64,000 bases of DNA from the NCBI GenBank assembly GCA_003170135.1, contig PMZR01000006.1, positions 1 through 64,000 on the forward strand, read 5' to 3'. Source of the stretch: Acidobacteriota bacterium (lineage in GTDB: Bacteria > Acidobacteriota > Vicinamibacteria > Vicinamibacterales > Fen-181). Of this stretch, positions 1,989-14,423 are shown piece by piece (the first letter of the stretch is position 1; every line of letters starts with the position of its first letter). The notes beneath the pieces were generated by a model that made no database searches, was not told the DNA's origin, and saw only the letters and a program-made list of their open reading frames with translations. Position numbers and translations under genes: made by a program.

Positions 1989-2018
1989 TTGACATCTCAG
2001 GCGCGTGTTTGGTATCGT
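1989..2018 (+). promoter_or_regulatory. Putative sigma70-type promoter for the aromatic operon leader (TTGACA-N18-TATCGT)
   Basis: Perfect -35 TTGACA at 1989-1994, 4/6 -10 TATCGT at 2013-2018, upstream of the leader and divergent from the S55 gene. Confidence 0.55.
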
Positions 2019-2028
2019 CCGATTTCCT

Positions 2029-2181
2029 GTGACTGCAAATCAGAACGTGGCCACTCGCACCCCGAGCCGACCTCTCGCGGACGGCGGATCCGTCCGGACG
2101 AGCGTGGCGCCGGTCGCAGCGGGCGTGCAGTATTGCGGGTATTGGTGGTATTGCAGCCATAGAAGGGGCGGAATGGCCTGA
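2029..2181 (+). CDS. Candidate leader peptide, open from GTG 2029 (50 aa) or GTG 2104 (25 aa: MAPVAAGVQYCGYWWYCSHRRGGMA), with Tyr/Cys/Trp cluster
   Basis: Manual translation: tat tgc ggg tat tgg tgg tat tgc agc cat aga agg ggc gga atg gcc tga; followed by antiterminator/terminator elements. Confidence 0.65.
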   Translation: MTANQNVATRTPSRPLADGGSVRTSVAPVAAGVQYCGYWWYCSHRRGGMA

Positions 2182-2250
2182 TCTCTGGACCAGGCAGCGA
2201 CCACAAAAGCCTCTTCAACCCAGCCGGTTGAAGGGGCTTTTTCATTTTCC
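2162..2250 (+). promoter_or_regulatory. Transcription attenuator: antiterminator arm 2162-2169 competes with terminator arm 2230-2237 for 2209-2216
   Basis: GAAGGGGC occurs at both 2162-2169 and 2230-2237; both pair with GCCTCTTC at 2209-2216. Confidence 0.7.
2208..2248 (+). terminator. Intrinsic terminator of the leader
   Basis: 13-bp stem AGCCTCTTCAACC/GGTTGAAGGGGCT with one G-U pair, 5-nt loop CAGCC, then TTTTTCATTTT. Confidence 0.85.
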
Positions 2251-2287: not shown

Positions 2288-3706
2288 ATGGGCGATCGAC
2301 TGATCTGTCAGACGGTGACGGCGCGAACCACGGCGGAGCTTCGCGAGCGGCGCGACGCGGCTGCCGGGGTGGATCTGGTCGAACTGCGCCTGGACGGTGT
2401 GGCGGACCCCGACGCTCGCGGCGCCCTGGACGGGCGGCGGCTGCCGGCCATCGTCACGTGCCGGCCGGTTTGGGAGGGGGGCGCGTTCAGCGGGTCGGAA
2501 GAGGAGCGCCACCGCCTGCTCGAGCAGGCTGTCGAGGCCGGGGCCGAGTACGTTGACGTCGAATGGCGCGCCGGATTCCGCGACTCCCTGATTGGGCGCA
2601 CGTCCGGGGCCGGCCTGATCGTGTCGGTGCATGATTTTGCGGGCATCCCGGACGACCTGCTCTCGCTCCATCGCGCCATGCGGCAAACGGGCGCGAGTAT
2701 CTGCAAACTCGCCTTCACGGCCCGGCGGTTGACCGACGTGTTCGCTGCGGACGGGCTCGCCAAGGACGCCGGATCCCGGACTACCGGTCCCGGGCGGGTT
2801 GGGGGAACGGTCGTCATCGCGATGGGGACCGCAGGCATGGCAACGCGCGTGCTGCCCGGGCGGTTCCATTCCCAGTGGACGTATGCGGGCGACTGCGCGC
2901 CGGGCCAGATTCCTGCCGAGCGTCTGCTGACCGAGTTCCGCTTTCGCGAGATTACTCCCGCGACGGCCGTCTACGGCGTGGTCGGGTCGCGCAGCGGCGG
3001 CTCGCGGTCGCCGTCCTTGCACAACGCGGCGTTTCGCGCGGCGGGCGTCGACGCGGTCTACCTCCCCCTCGAGACCGCCGATTTCAGCGACTTCCTCGCA
3101 TTCGCCGATCGCCTGCCGCTGCTGGGCGCGAGCGTGACGATGCCGTTCAAGGAGGTCGCGATGGCGTGCGCCGCGGAGGTTGACGACATCGGCCGCGCGG
3201 TCGGCGCCGTGAACACGTTGCGCCGGGTGAGCGCGGGGTGGAGCGCCACCAACACGGACGTCGATGGCTTTCTCGATCCGATCCGTGACCTCCCGCTGCG
3301 TGGGCGGAGGGTCGCGATCATCGGCGCGGGCGGGGCAGCCAGGGCGGTCGCGGTCGCGGCCGGTCGGTGCGGCGCGCGCGTCTCCGTGTTCGGGCGGCAC
3401 CTGGGCCGCGCCCGTCTCGTCGCCGCTCTCGCGGACGGCGACGCGTTCGAGGGCGTGCCGGGTCGGGGCAGTTGGGATCTGCTCGTCAACGCGACGCCGG
3501 TCGGCGCCTCGCCCGACGTGGACCGGACACCGGTCGACGCGGAGCGGCTGGAGGGCGGGGTCGTCTACGACCTGGTCTACGACCCGCCGGTCACCCGGCT
3601 GATGCGCGAGGCCCGGGCCGCCGGATGCCGCACGGTCGGCGGTCTCGACATGCTGGTCGCGCAGGCGCAGCGCCAGAACGAGTGGTGGACTGGTGCCAGG
3701 TCGTGA
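2288..3706 (+). CDS. aroDE: Bifunctional type I 3-dehydroquinate dehydratase / shikimate dehydrogenase
   Basis: N-terminal AroD-I (CQTVTART, VDLVELRLD, SVHDF) fused to AroE (VVGSRSGGSRSPSLHN, TMPFKE, INTDVDGF-like, GAGGAARA); ATG at 2288 preferred over TTG 2228, which lies inside the terminator. Confidence 0.9.
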   Translation: MGDRLICQTVTARTTAELRERRDAAAGVDLVELRLDGVADPDARGALDGRRLPAIVTCRPVWEGGAFSGSEEERHRLLEQAVEAGAEYVDVEWRAGFRDSLIGRTSGAGLIVSVHDFAGIPDDLLSLHRAMRQTGASICKLAFTARRLTDVFAADGLAKDAGSRTTGPGRVGGTVVIAMGTAGMATRVLPGRFHSQWTYAGDCAPGQIPAERLLTEFRFREITPATAVYGVVGSRSGGSRSPSLHNAAFRAAGVDAVYLPLETADFSDFLAFADRLPLLGASVTMPFKEVAMACAAEVDDIGRAVGAVNTLRRVSAGWSATNTDVDGFLDPIRDLPLRGRRVAIIGAGGAARAVAVAAGRCGARVSVFGRHLGRARLVAALADGDAFEGVPGRGSWDLLVNATPVGASPDVDRTPVDAERLEGGVVYDLVYDPPVTRLMREARAAGCRTVGGLDMLVAQAQRQNEWWTGARS

Positions 3707-3764: not shown

Positions 3765-5839
<2,075 letters not shown>

Positions 5840-5864
5840 GGCCCACGGGAACAACGGGAGTGAC

Positions 5865-6884
5865 GTGTTCACCGGACTCTTCGAGAAGCTGACGCGGCGC
5901 GAGGACCTGACCGCGGACGAGGCCACCGCGGCGATGGGCGCCATCATGGAAGGGCGCGCGACGCCGGGCCAGGTCGCCGCCCTGCTGATGGGGCTGGCGA
6001 TGAAGGGCGAGCGGCCCGTGGAGATCGTCGGCCTGGCGCGCGCCATGCGCGAGCGCGCCGTCCCGTTCGCCAGGGATCCCGGTGAGGTGATGGATGTGTG
6101 CGGCACGGGAGGCGATCGCGCCGGCACCTTCAACATCTCGTCAGTGGCGGCCCTGGTGGTCTCGGCGGCGGGCGTGCGGGTCGCCAAGCACGGCAACCGG
6201 TCGGTGTCGAGCCGATGCGGAAGCGCCGACGTGTTCGAGGCGCTGGGCGTCCAGACGACGGCGCCGCCGGCGATGGCCGAGCGGTCGCTTCGCGACGCGG
6301 GAATCGCGTTTCTGTTCGCGCCGTCGTTCCACCCCTCGATGCGCCACGCGGCCGGCGTCAGGCGCGAGCTGGGCCTGCGCACGGCGTTCAACCTGCTCGG
6401 GCCGCTGACCAACCCGGCCCGTCCGCAACGCCAGCTCGTGGGTGTGCCGCGGCCGGAGCTGACCGAACTGCTCGCACGGGCGCTGGCGATGCTCGGCTCC
6501 GAGCGGGCGTGGGTGGTCCATGGGGCCGACGGCCTCGACGAGATCTCGACGGCCGGCTACACGAAGGTGTCGGAATGCCGGGACGGCGCGGTGAACACGT
6601 TCTACGTGCATCCCCTCGACGTCGGCCTGCCGAAGGCGGCGCGCGCGGCGCTCGTCGGTGGCGATGCCGCCGAGAATGCGGTCATGGTCCGCGACATCCT
6701 CGACGCGCAGCCGGGGCCGCGCCGCGACGTCGTCGTGCTGAACGCGGGAGCGGCCTTGCTCATCGCGGGGCGGGCGGGCGATCTTCGCGAAGGGATCGCC
6801 ATGGCCGCGGCGGCGTTGGACGACGGGCGAGCGGCCGCGACGCTCGAGGCGATGGTCCGGGCGTCGCACGCGACGGCGGATTGA
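5865..6884 (+). CDS. trpD: Anthranilate phosphoribosyltransferase
   Basis: DVCGTGGDRAGTFNISS, KHGNRSVSSRCGSAD, NLLGPLTNPA; GTG start proposed at 5865 in the 5823 ORF. Confidence 0.95.
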   Translation: MFTGLFEKLTRREDLTADEATAAMGAIMEGRATPGQVAALLMGLAMKGERPVEIVGLARAMRERAVPFARDPGEVMDVCGTGGDRAGTFNISSVAALVVSAAGVRVAKHGNRSVSSRCGSADVFEALGVQTTAPPAMAERSLRDAGIAFLFAPSFHPSMRHAAGVRRELGLRTAFNLLGPLTNPARPQRQLVGVPRPELTELLARALAMLGSERAWVVHGADGLDEISTAGYTKVSECRDGAVNTFYVHPLDVGLPKAARAALVGGDAAENAVMVRDILDAQPGPRRDVVVLNAGAALLIAGRAGDLREGIAMAAAALDDGRAAATLEAMVRASHATAD

Positions 6885-6916
6885 ACATCAAGCGGAGCGA
6901 GCTTGGGGCGCAGAGC

Positions 6917-6951
6917 GGACTCCGGACACCGGACTCCGGACTCCGGACACC
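6917..6951 (+). repeat. 5 x 7-bp array GGACTCC/GGACACC
   Basis: Direct reading of the trpD-trpC gap. Confidence 0.95.
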
Positions 6952-6961
6952 GTGAACCACC

Positions 6962-7750
6962 ATGTCCAGTGACCTTCTCGATCGGATCGTTTCGGCGACG
7001 CGGGTGACGCTCGAGGAGCGGCGGCAGACGCGGCCGTTCGCCCAGGTCGAGCGAGACGCCGCCCGGTGCACGCCGCGGTCCGCCGAGTTTCGCGCGGCGC
7101 TCGGGCGCACCGGGACCGTCAACGTGATCGCGGAGTGCAAGCGCCGATCGCCGCTCAAGGGCTTGCTGTGCGCCGACTACGCTGTCGTCGATCTCGCGCG
7201 CTCGTACGAAGCCGCCGGCGCGGCCGCCATCTCGGTCTTGACGGAGCCGTCGTTTTTCGACGGCGCCCTGGCGCATCTGGCCGACGTGCGCGCGGAGGTC
7301 GGCTTGCCGCTCCTTCGCAAGGACTTCATCGTCGACGAGTACCAGATCGCGGAGACGCGCGCGGCGGGTGCCGATGCCATTCTTCTCATCGTCGCGATTC
7401 TCGGAACGCGCACGGAAGCGTTCCTGAGGAAGGCGGAAGACGCGGGTTTGGCCGCACTGGTCGAGGTGCACGACGAGGCGGACCTGCACGTGGCGCGCGA
7501 CGCGGGCGCGTCCATCGTCGGCGTCAACAGCCGCGATCTGCGGACGATGACCGTGAGGCCCGAGACGTGTGGTGAACTGGCGGCTCGCATGCCACCGAAC
7601 GTCACGGCGGTGGCGGAAAGCGGCATTCGTACAGCGGACGATCTTGGGCGACTGCGGGCGCTCGGCTACTCGGCCTTCCTGGTCGGCGAGCGCCTCGTGC
7701 GCGCCGCCGACCCTGGCCAGGCGTTGCGGGAACTGACGGTATGCACGTAA
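6962..7750 (+). CDS. trpC: Indole-3-glycerol phosphate synthase
   Basis: IAECKRRSPLKG, VLTEPSFFDG, LRKDFIVDEYQI motifs. Confidence 0.96.
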   Translation: MSSDLLDRIVSATRVTLEERRQTRPFAQVERDAARCTPRSAEFRAALGRTGTVNVIAECKRRSPLKGLLCADYAVVDLARSYEAAGAAAISVLTEPSFFDGALAHLADVRAEVGLPLLRKDFIVDEYQIAETRAAGADAILLIVAILGTRTEAFLRKAEDAGLAALVEVHDEADLHVARDAGASIVGVNSRDLRTMTVRPETCGELAARMPPNVTAVAESGIRTADDLGRLRALGYSAFLVGERLVRAADPGQALRELTVCT

Positions 7751-8367
7751 AGATCTGCGGCATCACCCGCGCGGACGATGCGCAGCTGGCCGCCGAGCTC
7801 GGCGCCACGGCCCTGGGATTTGTCCTCTGGCCCGGCAGCCCGCGCGAGGTCGATCCGTTCCGTGCCCGGACCATCGTCCGGCATCTGCCGCCGCTCGTGT
7901 CGGTGGTCGGCGTGTTCGTCGATCAGCCGATCGAGTACGTGCGGCGCGTCGCGCGCCTGGTGCCGCTCGACGCGGTGCAGCTCCATGGCGGCGAATCGGC
8001 CGATTACTGCCGGAACGCCGGCTTGCGCGTGATCAAGGCCGTCGGCGTCGGGGGAACGGCGGCCGAGGAGATCGACCGGCTGCCTTGCGACGTGGTGATC
8101 CTGCTCGATGCCTGCGACCCGGTGCAGCATGGCGGCACCGGCCGTGCGATCGATTGGACGGCAGCCGCGCGCATCGCGCGGCAGCGGCCGACGATTCTCG
8201 CCGGCGGCCTGCGTGCCGAGAACGTCGCGGAGGCCGTCAGGCGTGTGCGCCCGTTCGGCATCGATGTGTCATCGGGTGTCGAAGCGAGGCCGGGGGTGAA
8301 AGATCCGAACCGGCTGCGCGATTTCTTCCGGGCGTTGCGCGATTGCGACGGCGGCTGGGGCACGTAG
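7741..8367 (+). CDS. trpF: Phosphoribosylanthranilate isomerase
   Basis: KICGIT start, VVGVFVD, VQLHG, FGIDVSSGVE; overlaps trpC. Confidence 0.96.
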   Translation: MHVKICGITRADDAQLAAELGATALGFVLWPGSPREVDPFRARTIVRHLPPLVSVVGVFVDQPIEYVRRVARLVPLDAVQLHGGESADYCRNAGLRVIKAVGVGGTAAEEIDRLPCDVVILLDACDPVQHGGTGRAIDWTAAARIARQRPTILAGGLRAENVAEAVRRVRPFGIDVSSGVEARPGVKDPNRLRDFFRALRDCDGGWGT

Positions 8368-8391
8368 GGCAAACCGCAAGACGAGGTGGCG

Positions 8392-9663
8392 ATGAAGGCA
8401 GCGATTGAGTTCGGCCGCCGTGATCCGGATGCGCGCGGCTACTACGGCGTTTACGGCGGGCGGTTCGTGCCCGAGACACTGATGGCGCCGGTCGAGGAGC
8501 TCGAGACGGCGTATTTCGCGGCCCGCCAGGATGAGGCGTTCGGGCGCGAGCTCGACGGGTTGCTTCGCGACTATGCGGGCCGGCCGACGCCGCTGTTCGA
8601 GGCGACGCGGCTGTCGGCGCACGCGGGCGGCGCGCGGATCTTTCTCAAGCGCGAAGACCTCGCGCACACCGGCGCCCACAAGATCAACAACGCGCTCGGA
8701 CAGGCGCTGCTCGCCCGGCGAATGGGGAAGCGGCGCGTCATTGCCGAGACCGGTGCCGGACAACACGGCGTCGCCACCGCCACCGCCTGTGCGCTCCTCG
8801 ACCTGCAATGCGAGGTCTACATGGGCGCCTCCGACATGGAACGCCAGGCCCTGAACGTCGTCCGGATGCAGATGCTCGGGGCGACGGTGCGGCGGGTGGA
8901 CGGCGGATCGCGAACGCTCAAGGACGCGATCAACGAAGCCCTGCGCGACTGGGTTGCCAATGTCGGGGACACCTACTATCTGCTGGGGTCCGTGCTCGGT
9001 CCGCATCCGTACCCGCTGATGGTCCGCGAGTTCCAATCGGTGATCGGACTCGAAGCGCGGGACCAGTTCCTTCGGAAGACCGGGCGGCTGCCCGACATCG
9101 TGGTTGCGTGCGTTGGCGGCGGCAGCAACGCCCTGGGGATCTTCGATGCGTTCGTCGGCGACCGCGACGTTCGACTGACCGGCGTCGAGGCCGGCGGGGA
9201 AGGCATCAGGCCCGGCTGCCATGCCGCGCGTTTTGCGGGCGGGACGCTGGGGGTGCTGCAGGGGACGCGTACCTACGTGCTGCAGGATGAGGCGGGGAAC
9301 ATCGAACAGACACATTCGATTTCCGCGGGGCTCGACTATGCGGCGGTCGGGCCCGAGCACGCATGGCTGCGCGATCTCGGCCGTGCGGAGTATGCGTGGG
9401 TCTCGGACGCCGAGGCCGTCGAGGCGTTTCATCTGCTCGCCCGCCTCGAGGGGATTCTGCCTGCGCTCGAGTCGGCGCACGCCATCGCCCTTGGCCATCG
9501 CCTGGCGGCTCGGATGGATCGGCATCAACTGGTCCTCGTCAACCTGTCTGGGCGTGGCGACAAAGACGTGCAGGCGCTCGCGGCGATGCCGCACGCCGGC
9601 GAGACGGGCGATCGGACCACGTCGCGGCGCGGCCAGCCGCGCGATTTCGCGGAGGAACGCTGA
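8392..9663 (+). CDS. trpB: Tryptophan synthase beta chain
   Basis: [48 protein letters not shown]. Confidence 0.97.
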
Positions 9664-9664
9664 C

Positions 9665-10465
9665 GTGTCACGCCTCGAGTCCACGTTCGGCCGGCTCAGA
9701 GCCGACCATCGCACGGGCCTGGTGACCTATGTCACGGCCGGCGATCCCGACCTCCAACGGTCCGCCGAGATCCTGCTGGCGCTCGATGCGGCAGGTGTCG
9801 ATGTCCTGGAGGTCGGCGTGCCGTTCTCCGACCCGGTGGCCGACGGCCCGGTCATCCAGCGAGCGTCGGAGCGGGCGCTCCGGCAGGGGATGACGCTCGT
9901 AGGCGTGCTCCAGATGATTGCGGACCTGCGCGCGAAGCTGGCGGCGCCGGTCGTTCTCTTCAGTTACGTGAACCCGATCCTGCGCATGGGAGTCGATCCG
10001 TTTGCGCGCGCGGCGGCCGCGGCGGGCGTCGATGGCGTGCTGGCGCTGGACCTGCCGGCCGACGAGGCCGGTGAGCTGCGTGACCGTCTGGGCGAGGAGG
10101 GGGTGGACACGATCTTCGTGCTCAGCCCGACGAGCACCGTGGGGCGGATTGCGCGGGCCGCCGCCCTCGGTCGCGGCTTCCTGTACGGCGTCTCGCGCCT
10201 GGGCGTCACCGGCGCCCGCGCGCAGCTCGCGGAGGCGGCGCGGCCCCTGGTGGAACGGATCCGGGCGGTGAGCGCGTTGCCCGTGGCGGTTGGCTTCGGC
10301 GTCTCGCGGCCCGAGCACGTCCGCGAGATTGGCACGTTCGCGGACGCCGCCGTGGTCGGAAGCGCGCTGGTCAGCGTGGTCGAGGAAGCAGCCGGGCGCG
10401 ACGATCTGGCAGCCCGCGTGTCGGAGCGGGCGCGATGGTTGATGGGGTCGGCGGTCAACGGTTAA
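9665..10465 (+). CDS. trpA: Tryptophan synthase alpha chain
   Basis: LVTYVTAGDPD, LEVGVPFSDPVADGPVIQ; GTG start just after trpB stop. Confidence 0.95.
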   Translation: MSRLESTFGRLRADHRTGLVTYVTAGDPDLQRSAEILLALDAAGVDVLEVGVPFSDPVADGPVIQRASERALRQGMTLVGVLQMIADLRAKLAAPVVLFSYVNPILRMGVDPFARAAAAAGVDGVLALDLPADEAGELRDRLGEEGVDTIFVLSPTSTVGRIARAAALGRGFLYGVSRLGVTGARAQLAEAARPLVERIRAVSALPVAVGFGVSRPEHVREIGTFADAAVVGSALVSVVEEAAGRDDLAARVSERARWLMGSAVNG

Positions 10466-10511: not shown

Positions 10512-10826
10512 GTGATGACCCTCGGGGACTGGCGGGCAAAGGTCGACGAGATCGACGCCGCCATCGTGCGCCTGTTGAACGATCGGGCGGCGTGCGCGGT
10601 GGCGATTGGCCACCTCAAGCAGCAGGAGCACGTGGCGGTGTACCAGCCGGAGCGCGAGCGCGAGGTGATCGAGCGCGTCCGTGCGCTGACCGTCGCGAGT
10701 GGCGGCCCGCTCGGGCCCGGCGCGATGGCGCGCCTGTTCGAGCGAATCATCGACGAGGCGCGGGGCCTGGAGATTGCGCGGGTGTCGGACAGGGACCAAG
10801 ACGAGCACAACGGAAATGCCAGGTGA
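10512..10826 (+). CDS. aroQ: Chorismate mutase (AroQ class)
   Basis: RAKVDEIDAAIVRLLNDRAACAVAIGHLK; downstream of trpA. Confidence 0.88.
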   Translation: MMTLGDWRAKVDEIDAAIVRLLNDRAACAVAIGHLKQQEHVAVYQPEREREVIERVRALTVASGGPLGPGAMARLFERIIDEARGLEIARVSDRDQDEHNGNAR

Positions 10827-10842
10827 AGACGGGGAGACTGAC

Positions 10843-11892
10843 GTGGTCATCGTGATGGAGCAGAAGGCGACCGAAGCACAGATCGAGGTGGTTATCGGCC
10901 ATCTCGTGCGTCTCGGGTTCGACGTGCACCGATCGACCGGGAGCGAGCGGACCGTTCTCGGCGCCGTCGGCAGCGGGCACGTCGACGACCCGGGCGTGCT
11001 CGCGGTGCTCGAGGGCGTGCACGAGGTGGTCCGTATCAGCGAACCGTACAAACTGGCCAGTCGCGCCTTCAAGCCGGGGGGCACCGTGGTGGCGCTCGGG
11101 GAGGTGCGCATCGGCGGTGACGAAGTCATCGTCATCGCGGGGCCGTGCTCGGCGGAGACCGAAGAGCAGGTCTTCCAGACGGCGGCCGCGGTGAAACGCG
11201 CCGGCGCGAAGATCCTCCGGGGCGGGGCGTTCAAGCCGCGCAGCTCGCCCTACAGTTTCCAGGGGCTCGGCGAGAAGGGGCTGCAGATGCTGCGGTCGGC
11301 GGCCAACGAACAGAACCTGAAGCTCGTGTCGGAGGTGATGGACGTCGCGCAGATCGAGCTGGTCGATCGCTACGCGGACATGCTGCAGGTGGGCGCGCGC
11401 AACATGCAGAACTTCTCGCTGTTGCGGGAACTGGGAAAGACGCGCAAACCGATCTTGCTGAAGCGCGGCATTTCGGCGACCATCGAGGAGTGGCTGCTGT
11501 CGGCCGAGTACATCCTCGGCGGCGGCAACCCCGACGTGGTGCTGTGCGAACGGGGCATCCGCACGTTCGAGAACTACACGCGCAACACGCTCGACCTGTG
11601 CGCGATCCCGGTGGTGAAGAAGCTGAGTCACCTGCCGATCATCGTGGACCCGAGCCACGGCACCGGCCGGCGCGACAAGGTGGCGCCGATGGCGCGGGCG
11701 GCGGTGGCGGCGGGGGCGGACGGCCTGATCATCGAGGTGCACACGGACCCGGACCGGGCGCTCAGCGACGGCGCGCAGTCGCTCATCCCGTCGCAGTTCG
11801 ATCAGCTGATGGCCGAACTGCGCATCATCGCCCCGGCCATCGGCCGCGGCATCTGCGTGGAGCCGGTGGCGCGCCGCGGTTGGGCGGTCTGA
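10843..11892 (+). CDS. aroF: 3-deoxy-7-phosphoheptulonate synthase with N-terminal ferredoxin-like domain
   Basis: [49 protein letters not shown] start inferred. Confidence 0.93.
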
Positions 11893-11901
11893 GCGTCACG
11901 G

Positions 11902-11929
11902 AGTCCGAAGTCCGAGGTCCGAAGTCCGA
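11902..11929 (+). repeat. 4 x 7-bp array RGTCCGA ending at the tyrA start codon
   Basis: agtccga agtccga ggtccga agtccga. Confidence 0.95.
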
Positions 11930-11930
11930 T

Positions 11931-12944
11931 ATGAGCGCAGACCAACGCTTCCTTCCGATCCTCCGGCCCGGCCTGGACGCGAGCCTCAGCCCGCCGGTCT
12001 TCGAGCGCATCGGCATCGTCGGCCTCGGGCTGATCGGGGGGTCGATCGCGCTGGCGGCCAGGCAGGCATGGCCGTCGGGGCTCGTCATCGGCGTCGACAC
12101 CAACGAGGTCCTCGAGCAGGCGGTCGCCCGCCACGTCATCGATGTTGCGGCGAGCGATCTGACCATCGTCAGCGAAGCCGACCTCGTGATCCTGGCCGCC
12201 CCGGTCGACGCCAACCTGGCGCTGCTGGCACGCCTGCCCGACTACCTCGAACGCCCGGTCATCGTCACCGACACCGGCAGCACCAAGCGCGCGATCGTGG
12301 CAGCCGCCTCCGCGCTGCCTGCGCGCCTCACCTTTGTTGGCGGTCACCCGCTCGGTGGCTCCACCCGGAGCGGAATCGAAGCGGCGCGAGCCGATCTGTT
12401 CGCGGGACGGCCCTGGCTGTTCACGCCTGAGCGGGCGGTCACAGACCCGGGCCCGGCAGCTGGCGATCCGGGCGCGGTAGCCGTGGATGCGGCGGCTATG
12501 CGTCTGGCGGCGCGAGCATCGCGCGAGGGCGCCACCGGGCGCGCGGGCGAGGCCATGGCCCGGCTGTTCCAGTTCGCGGAAGGCCTCGGGGCCGTGCCGC
12601 ACACGATCGACGCTCGCGAGCACGATCACCTGCTCGCGTTCATCAGCCACCTGCCCCAGTTGGCCGCCAGCGCGCTGATGCAGATTGTCGGCGACGCGGC
12701 CGGCGAGGACGGCCTCCGGTTGTCGGGGCGCGGTCTCCAGGACACGACGCGGCTGGCGGGCAGCCCGGCCGGTATCTGGACGGAGATCTGTGCGAGCAAT
12801 GCCGACGAGATCCGCGCCGCGATCGACGCGCTGGTCGGCGCCCTCCAGCAGTTGCGCGACCACGTCGCCGAACGGGACACGATCGAGCGATTGTTCGAGG
12901 CCGCCCGGAACTGGCGCGCGGTGCTGGTCGACAAGCAGGCGTGA
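11931..12944 (+). CDS. tyrA: Prephenate dehydrogenase
   Basis: IGIVGLGLIGGSIALAAR Rossmann, TDTGSTK, GGHPLGGSTRSGIEAA, HDHLLAFISHLPQL. Confidence 0.92.
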   Translation: MSADQRFLPILRPGLDASLSPPVFERIGIVGLGLIGGSIALAARQAWPSGLVIGVDTNEVLEQAVARHVIDVAASDLTIVSEADLVILAAPVDANLALLARLPDYLERPVIVTDTGSTKRAIVAAASALPARLTFVGGHPLGGSTRSGIEAARADLFAGRPWLFTPERAVTDPGPAAGDPGAVAVDAAAMRLAARASREGATGRAGEAMARLFQFAEGLGAVPHTIDAREHDHLLAFISHLPQLAASALMQIVGDAAGEDGLRLSGRGLQDTTRLAGSPAGIWTEICASNADEIRAAIDALVGALQQLRDHVAERDTIERLFEAARNWRAVLVDKQA

Positions 12945-13035
12945 CGCCTCCGCCATCCCTTCCATGCGCCAATCGGTGACGCCGCACCTTGACATGCAGC
13001 CCGCCTGTGGCCTGATCATGGGCTGAGGACGTGTG

Positions 13036-13737
13036 ATGAACAAAGCGCTCACGACCGCCGCCGAAGCGGTCTCATCGATTCCCGACGGCGCCACCATCAT
13101 GATGGGCGGGTTCGGCCTGTGCGGGATTCCCGAGAACCTCATTGCGGCGTTGCGGGAGCGCGGCACCCGCGATCTCACCATCATCAGCAACAATGCCGGC
13201 ATCGACGATTTCGGCCTCGGTGTCCTCCTCAAGGCGCACCAGATTCGGAAGATGATTTCCACCTACGTCGGCGAGAACAAGGAGTTCGAGCGCCAGTGCA
13301 TCACCGGTGAACTGGATCTCGAACTCGTGCCGCAGGGGACGTTCGCCGAGCGCATCCGCGCGGGCGGCGCGGGCATCGGCGGGTTCTTCACGCCGACCGG
13401 CTACGGCACGGTGGTGGCCGAGGGGAAGGAGACGCGCGTGATCGACGGGCGTCCGTTCGTGCTCGAGCTGCCGCTCAAGGCGGACTTCGCGTTCGTGAAG
13501 GCGCAGCGCGGCGACACGCTGGGCAACCTCGTGTACCGGAAGACGGCCCGCAACTTCAACCCGATGATGGCGACCGCGGCGAAGGTGACGATCGCCGAGG
13601 TCGAGGAACTCGTGGAGCCGGGCGAGCTCGATCCGAACGGCATCGTCACGCCGGGGATCTTCGTGCGATACATCCTGCGGGGAGCGCGATACGAGAAGCG
13701 CATCGAGCGCCGGACCGTCCTCGCGGCCGGCCGATGA
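13036..13737 (+). CDS. scoA: 3-oxoacid CoA-transferase subunit A
   Basis: [34 protein letters not shown] motifs. Confidence 0.9.
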
Positions 13738-14423
13738 GCCGTGAGGCAGGCGGGCCGTCACTGAAGGAGCGCGGAGTGGACAAACGCGATCGGATCGTTC
13801 GCCGGGTGGCCCGTGAACTGAGGGACGGCGACTACGTGAACCTCGGCATCGGCATGCCGACGCTGGTCGCCAACCAGGTCCCGCCCGGCATTCACATCAC
13901 GCTGCACTCGGAGAACGGCATGCTCGGCGTCGGGCCGTACCCGCGCGACGCCGATGTCGATCCGGACCTGATCAACGCGGGGAAGGAAACGATCAGCGAG
14001 ACGCGCGGCTGCTGCTACTTCAACAGCGCCGACTCGTTTGCGATGGTGCGCGGCGGGCACATCGACCTGACCGTTCTCGGCGCTTTGCAGGTGGACGAGC
14101 AGGGCAATCTCGCGAACTGGATGATTCCCGGGAAGATGGTGAAGGGCATGGGCGGCGCGATGGACCTGGTGGCGGGCGCCAAGCGCGTCGTGGTGGCGAT
14201 GGAGCACACGACCAAGGAGGGCGAGCCGAAGATCCTCCACGCCTGCACGCTGCCGCTCACGGGTCGCAGCGTGGTCCATCGCATCATCACCGACCTGGCG
14301 GTCATCGACGTGACGAGGCGCGGCCTCCTGCTTTGCGAGATCGCGGAAGACACCACGCTCGATCAGGTGAGGGCGGCGACCGAAGCTGGCCTGATTGTCG
14401 AAGACCCGCTGGCGGTGTTCTAA
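13734..14423 (+). CDS. scoB: 3-oxoacid CoA-transferase subunit B
   Basis: [31 protein letters not shown]; follows subunit A. Confidence 0.9.

Follow-up and report, generated by a model that had tools for sequence, protein, structure and literature searches.

Our analysis points to an E. coli trp-type, ribosome-mediated transcription attenuator ahead of aroDE, and it is highly likely that this element gates the entire aromatic supraoperon of the window (by which we mean the whole 64,000-nucleotide stretch of DNA analysed). From the sequence evidence we have very little doubt that the leader acts by ribosome-mediated attenuation. The earlier note on this DNA had suggested the logic of the E. 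coli trp leader, a suggestion that is now supported by the ORF, its codons, the arms and their alternative helices, conservation and covariation. Such an attenuator would carry the classical mechanism into a further phylum, the Acidobacteriota, and there into an entire order, the Vicinamibacterales, which are poorly studied soil and water bacteria, and it would reach a supraoperon that spans most of aromatic biosynthesis. With both Trp and Tyr codons in its leader, it is also a candidate two-input attenuator.

Organization of the leader region and the supraoperon

The features of the region are collected in Table 1. The intrinsic terminator sits between the leader ORF and aroDE and is part of the operon transcript. 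Because the upstream gene is divergent, the terminator serves the aroDE transcript only. The presence of this S55 peptidase-domain gene beside aroDE is a neighbourhood kept across the order, and two genes for CoA-transferase subunits (13033-14423) lie directly 3' of tyrA on the same strand.

Table 1. Features of the putative attenuator, the supraoperon and the upstream gene, in window coordinates
Feature	Position	Strand	Details	Basis
SpoIVB-type S55 peptidase domain protein gene	19-1884	opposite	divergent from aroDE	
Sigma-70-like promoter	1989-2018	+	TTGACA 1989-1994, 18-nt spacer with TG, TATCGT 2013-2018	pattern scan
Alternative start of leader ORF	GTG 2029	+	50 aa	raw sequence
Leader peptide ORF	2047-2181	+	44 aa from GTG 2047, VATRTPSRPLADGGSVRTSVAPVAAGVQYCGYWWYCSHRRGGMA, stop TGA 2179-2181	raw sequence, family-leader comparison
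Regulatory codons Y C G Y W W Y C	2131-2154	+	TAT 2131, TGC 2134, GGG 2137, TAT 2140, TGG 2143, TGG 2146, TAT 2149, TGC 2152	raw sequence
Arm 2, antiterminator 5' arm	2162-2169	+	GAAGGGGC, within leader ORF	folding, conservation, covariation
Arm 3, partner of arm 2 or arm 4	2205-2220	+	AAAAGCCTCTTCAACC	pattern scan, folding, covariation
Arm 4 and T-rich tract, intrinsic terminator	2226-2248	+	GGTTGAAGGGGCTTTT	pattern scan, folding, covariation
aroDE	2288-3706	+	type I dehydroquinase/shikimate dehydrogenase fusion, first gene under control	
trpE, trpG, trpD, trpC, trpF, trpB, trpA	3765-10465	+		
aroQ, aroF, tyrA	10512-12944	+	chorismate mutase, DAHP synthase, prephenate dehydrogenase	

The raw sequence agrees with the earlier note on the eight regulatory codons and the stop codon, as well as on the repeated arm: GAAGGGGC is present at 2162-2169 and again at 2230-2237, with GCCTCTTC at 2209-2216. 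Also present is the T-tract terminator that it had described, but the pattern scan gave a helix of 16 bp (2205-2220 with 2226-2241, then a T-rich tail) and not the 13 bp originally given. RNA folding likewise predicted the two alternative helices that had been proposed: sequence that includes arm 4 folds into the terminator, and sequence that lacks it into an antiterminator of 2162-2169 with 2209-2216. In the predicted fold of the window, the Trp-codon region is not paired with arm 2. TATTGGTGGTAT occurs a single time in the 5.8-Mb genome, and one promoter of the pattern TTGACA-18-TATCGT was found by scanning where 0.1 would be expected.

Conservation within the Vicinamibacterales

Related loci were taken from aroDE in 60 related genomes, from trpE in GTDB genomes (among them Vicinamibacterales and Acidobacteria) and by direct extraction. 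In 59 distinct loci, aroDE is preceded by a leader ORF in which Trp codons are adjacent. Trp codons are interleaved (WRYW, WYW, WFW) in 13 further loci, a few of which are one genome fetched twice or close relatives, for a total of 72. Behind the Trp cluster the related loci carry GARGRGGC and then a terminator of like design, and 48 of 71 loci have arm 2 at its full 8 nt, versus 3.7% of shuffled regions. Since leader, arm 2 and terminator recur 5' of aroDE in 72 related loci, the element stands far above chance. Exceptions are few: L011, from genome G001, has no leader 5' of aroDE, and in L015/L056 and L029 the terminator is retained but the leader has a single Trp codon.

A covariance model built from 53 of the loci matches 148 of the order's 162 genomes, all but one at E below 1e-9, and 158 of 193 genomes of the class, 10 of these 158 belonging to other orders. 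The second-best match in the window's own genome (G000:C30) proved to be a tRNA gene with a terminator behind it, and we set it aside as chance. The earlier note had asked for conservation of the Trp/Tyr codons and of the arms in close relatives, and for a transcription start upstream of 2100. The codons and all three arms are kept, and the promoter pattern is present where expected in 67 of the 72 loci. These observations bear directly on the idea of a chance ORF beside an ordinary transcription terminator. Short ORFs are indeed common in GC-rich DNA. However, the divergent upstream gene leaves no other plus-strand transcript that would need a terminator here, and the arrangement recurs across the order; conservation refutes this explanation, and we give it practically no credence.

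The position of the leader start was also compared among these loci. In 48 of 67 loci the leader frame has an ATG or GTG at 4-23 nt (mostly 8-17 nt) past the -10 element; the other two frames have one in 0 and 2 loci. Therefore, many of the leaders appear to be leaderless or nearly so. In the window's own family the start lies about 28-36 nt after the -10 element and the leader has 41-43 aa. GTG 2047, 28 nt after the -10 element, gives a 44-aa leader beginning VATRTPSR (versus MTTRQLRC in L134), and is probably the start, being the best fit and giving the family length; GTG 2029 is a possible alternative. The earlier note had preferred GTG 2104, which is not the conserved start: close relatives have no fitting start codon there.

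Covariation and the alternative helices

Both helices covary (71-72 loci); the earlier note had proposed a search for compensatory changes in arms 2, 3 and 4. In the terminator 95.8% of cells are paired, with 45 double-sided changes; in the antiterminator, counted in the alignment register common to the sequences other than the window, 94.8% of cells are paired, with 21 double-sided changes. None of 500 shuffles reached the double-change count of either the terminator or the antiterminator, and pairing dropped sharply for both helices when the partner arm was slid. All 13 loci with C and not U at position 4 of arm 3 carry the complementary G in arm 2, as do 11 of the 58 others (Fisher p=5e-8, in a test that ignores shared ancestry; kinship inflates such simple tests). 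Two other arm 2/arm 3 positions gave a similar outcome, with the same caveat. Without arm 4, the antiterminator is the predicted fold in 70 of 71 loci.

Arm 2 is read in one frame in 59 loci, in the other two frames in 7, and lies at or after the stop codon in 5; the window reads AGA AGG GGC, versus GAA GAG GC in most relatives. With its reading frame varying in this way, arm 2 is conserved as an RNA element and not as a piece of peptide.

A further possibility is that the terminator is under some other control, by an RNA-binding protein, a small RNA or a ligand, and that the ORF is incidental. The terminator by itself is the most strongly conserved piece, which is in keeping with that idea. 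However, conservation extends to the Trp codons, to the distance between them and arm 2, and to arm 2 itself, which covaries, and no known Rfam family fits: the whole window gave nothing relevant at the gathering score and no match to Trp_leader (RF00513), and a permissive search of 1900-2400, up to E=10, returned nothing relevant, with no RF00513, no riboswitch and no T-box. Likewise, the window has no match to a T-box or other riboswitch family. We therefore regard other control as very improbable and retain ribosome-mediated attenuation.

Ribosome geometry and the amino acids probably sensed

A bacterial ribosome reaches about 12 nt forward, counted from the first base of its A-site codon to its front edge. 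At 12-14 nt before arm 2, Trp makes up 30% and Tyr 18% of codons; at 9-11 nt these fall to 4% and 3%, and nearer to arm 2 they are about zero. Since 12 nt is about the reach of the ribosome, Trp and Tyr codons are limited to sites where stalling would leave arm 2 free. In most loci the distance from the first base of arm 2 to the stop codon is 15-21 nt, so that a ribosome at the stop codon would cover much of the arm. The geometry thus fits, and supports the view that a stalled ribosome would leave the antiterminator 5' arm free. Since most Trp and Tyr codons lie 12 nt or more 5' of arm 2, codons for at least two products of the operon are within reach.

Which amino acids are sensed is a separate question, and dual sensing of Trp and Tyr is the least certain step of our reading. 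In a zone that spans 12-33 nt before arm 2, Tyr makes up 23% of the codons other than Trp, and farther upstream 2.3% (p=4e-28), a comparison in which the upstream codons of the same leaders served as the reference and Tyr had played no part in the selection of loci. Tyr is present in the zone in 64 of 71 loci. It is not obligatory, because 7 of the 71 leaders have none there. Phe and Cys are not significantly enriched in this zone among the 71 loci (p about 0.07 each).

These data have to be weighed against a Trp-only attenuator, in which the Trp codons sense and the Tyr codons serve something else, for example keeping the site unstructured through their A/U-rich sequence or slowing decoding beside Trp. 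Trp is the sole near-invariant codon (71 of 72 loci at the first aligned position, a position chosen by Trp), leaders without Tyr in the zone exist (L112 and six others), and the classical trp leaders respond to Trp alone. However, the Tyr enrichment was not matched by a significant one for the equally A/U-rich Phe codons TTT and TTC, and Tyr ends at the same 12-nt limit as Trp. Moreover, tyrA and aroF belong to the operon, whereas relatives' units that lack aroF and tyrA have Trp without Tyr (the trp-only unit of G001 and the WWWWC leader of L052). On balance a Trp-only attenuator seems to us credible but somewhat improbable, and the Trp and Tyr leader is probably multivalent, as judged from its codons. 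The earlier note had reasoned that mixed Tyr/Trp codons fit an operon of this content, and this gains support from the Tyr enrichment in the zone and from codons that match operon products elsewhere.

The Cys codons, which the earlier note had listed among the features of the leader, did not prove to be conserved. Cys peaks at 9-11 nt before arm 2, just beyond the zone. We rejected the idea that the leader also senses Cys, given the p value of 0.07 in the zone and the location of most Cys codons just past it. Such codons may reflect the decay of useless TGG codons to TGC or TGT, each one base away.

Leaders upstream of other operons

Leaders were also found before operons of other content. In a sister order of the same class the operon is aroDE-hisZ/G/D/C/B/H/A/F/IE-trpEGDCF, and its leaders (RRWRATVHHHRYHA, RRWRPVFRHHRYHP, RRWRPIFHRYHRT, WRGSVHHHRHHS, AWRPFFHFRYHP and similar) contain Trp, His, Tyr and Phe codons and are followed by a terminator. 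In L244-L247, from this sister order, the antiterminator arm apparently lies well past the stop codon, a different architecture. Leaders of pheA are rich in Phe (FTGFFFTG; FPFACSFAGFIAG; RNFTSFTIGGF); in the Vicinamibacterales, L166, L167, L213 and L214 have a Phe-rich leader and a strong terminator 5' of pheA. In other families of Acidobacteriota, L168, L171 and L172 have a WWW leader and terminator 5' of a TrpB-like trpB2. In another family of the phylum, L176 and L180 have the leader ILLLLVLVLVLVTQGAN and a terminator 5' of ilvE; the ilvE leaders read LLLLVLVLVLV and are likely, from their sequence, to be branched-chain attenuators.

Two cases are closer to the Tyr question. G001, which belongs to the window's family, has a split supraoperon and is thereby a natural test of the Tyr idea: the leader of its trp-only unit reads SSSWWWRNSIH, without Tyr. 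Its units (L249, L250 and L011) are aroDE-tyrA without a leader, the trp-only unit with the WWWR leader, and aroQ-aroF-tyrA; this last has its own terminator, its leader being lost at the contig end. In L052, aroDE-trp is followed by sco genes and the leader is WWWWC, without Tyr; the CoA-transferase genes there come after trpA, replacing aroQ-aroF.

The codon mix forms a series: Trp and Tyr with aroDE-trp-aroF-tyrA, Trp and His with Tyr or Phe for aroDE-his-trp, Phe for pheA, and Trp alone for trp-only units. These leaders, which are few and in part weak model matches, support the multivalent reading, short of proof. Since operon content shifts between related orders and the leader codons shift with it, the group offers a natural test of sensor-codon evolution. 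The broadest reading, of class-wide leader-peptide attenuators in Acidobacteriota whose codon mix tracks operon content, with dual sensing by the Trp and Tyr leader and with many leaders near-leaderless, strikes us as evenly poised.

Proposed mechanism

In the model that we favour, transcription would start just past 2018, and a ribosome would soon enter the leader peptide. If Trp-tRNA, and probably also Tyr-tRNA, were scarce, the ribosome would stall at 2140-2151, with its front edge ending just short of arm 2. The free arm 2 would then pair with arm 3 (2209-2216), the terminator would be blocked, and aroDE-trpEGDCFBA-aroQ-aroF-tyrA would be transcribed. With both Trp and Tyr plentiful, the ribosome would translate as far as the stop codon (2179), masking arm 2, the helix of arms 3 and 4 would form, and transcription would stop at the T tract. 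From the sequence we infer that the ribosome stalls, that transcription terminates in vivo and which way the system responds.

Comparison with known systems

The closest parallel is E. coli trpL (RF00513), which has a leader peptide with tandem Trp codons and alternative 2:3 antiterminator and 3:4 terminator helices. The second Trp codon lies about 17 nt from arm 2 in E. coli trp, and the 16 nt found here is similar. Unlike in E. coli, where arm 2 follows the stop codon, arm 2 lies inside the leader ORF; the leader has 44 aa as opposed to 14, Tyr codons are conserved beside Trp, and control would span aroDE, aroQ, aroF and tyrA besides trp. Nor was a counterpart of the 1:2 protector hairpin of trpL, in which the Trp-codon region would pair with arm 2, conserved in the folds of 71 loci: such pairing was predicted in only 22 of 71 loci, and the window is not among them. 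The E. coli ilvGMEDA and thrABC leaders provide precedents for one peptide that carries codons for several pathway products, although these are branched-chain amino acids and Thr/Ile and not aromatic ones.

Among other bacteria, trpLE(G) of Sinorhizobium meliloti (Alphaproteobacteria) also has a leader with Trp codons and ribosome-dependent attenuation, and its leader transcript begins at the start codon and is leaderless (PMC7298713), like the apparently near-leaderless start of many loci here. However, it senses Trp only and controls trpE(G) only. The actinobacterial trp attenuators of Corynebacterium and Streptomyces share the double or triple UGG, a GC-rich terminator and a triple of complementary arms, with the arm motif gGCC-rGCy-GGCC as compared with GARGRGGC-GCCTCTTC-GARGRGGC here; tyrosine and phenylalanine elements were not found in that survey (PMC1262725). 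Putative attenuators before tyrA-containing supraoperons were listed in 2005, in a paper in which Acidobacteria go unmentioned (PMC1173090). A 2010 survey placed leader-peptide systems then known only in Proteobacteria and Actinobacteria, added one case in Firmicutes, and reported almost no predicted attenuator with an associated function in Acidobacteria (PMC2965389). The open-access text covered here describes no leader peptide attenuator in this group. The class of mechanism is known, and what appears to be new is the phylum, the combination of Trp with Tyr codons and a start that is often near-leaderless.
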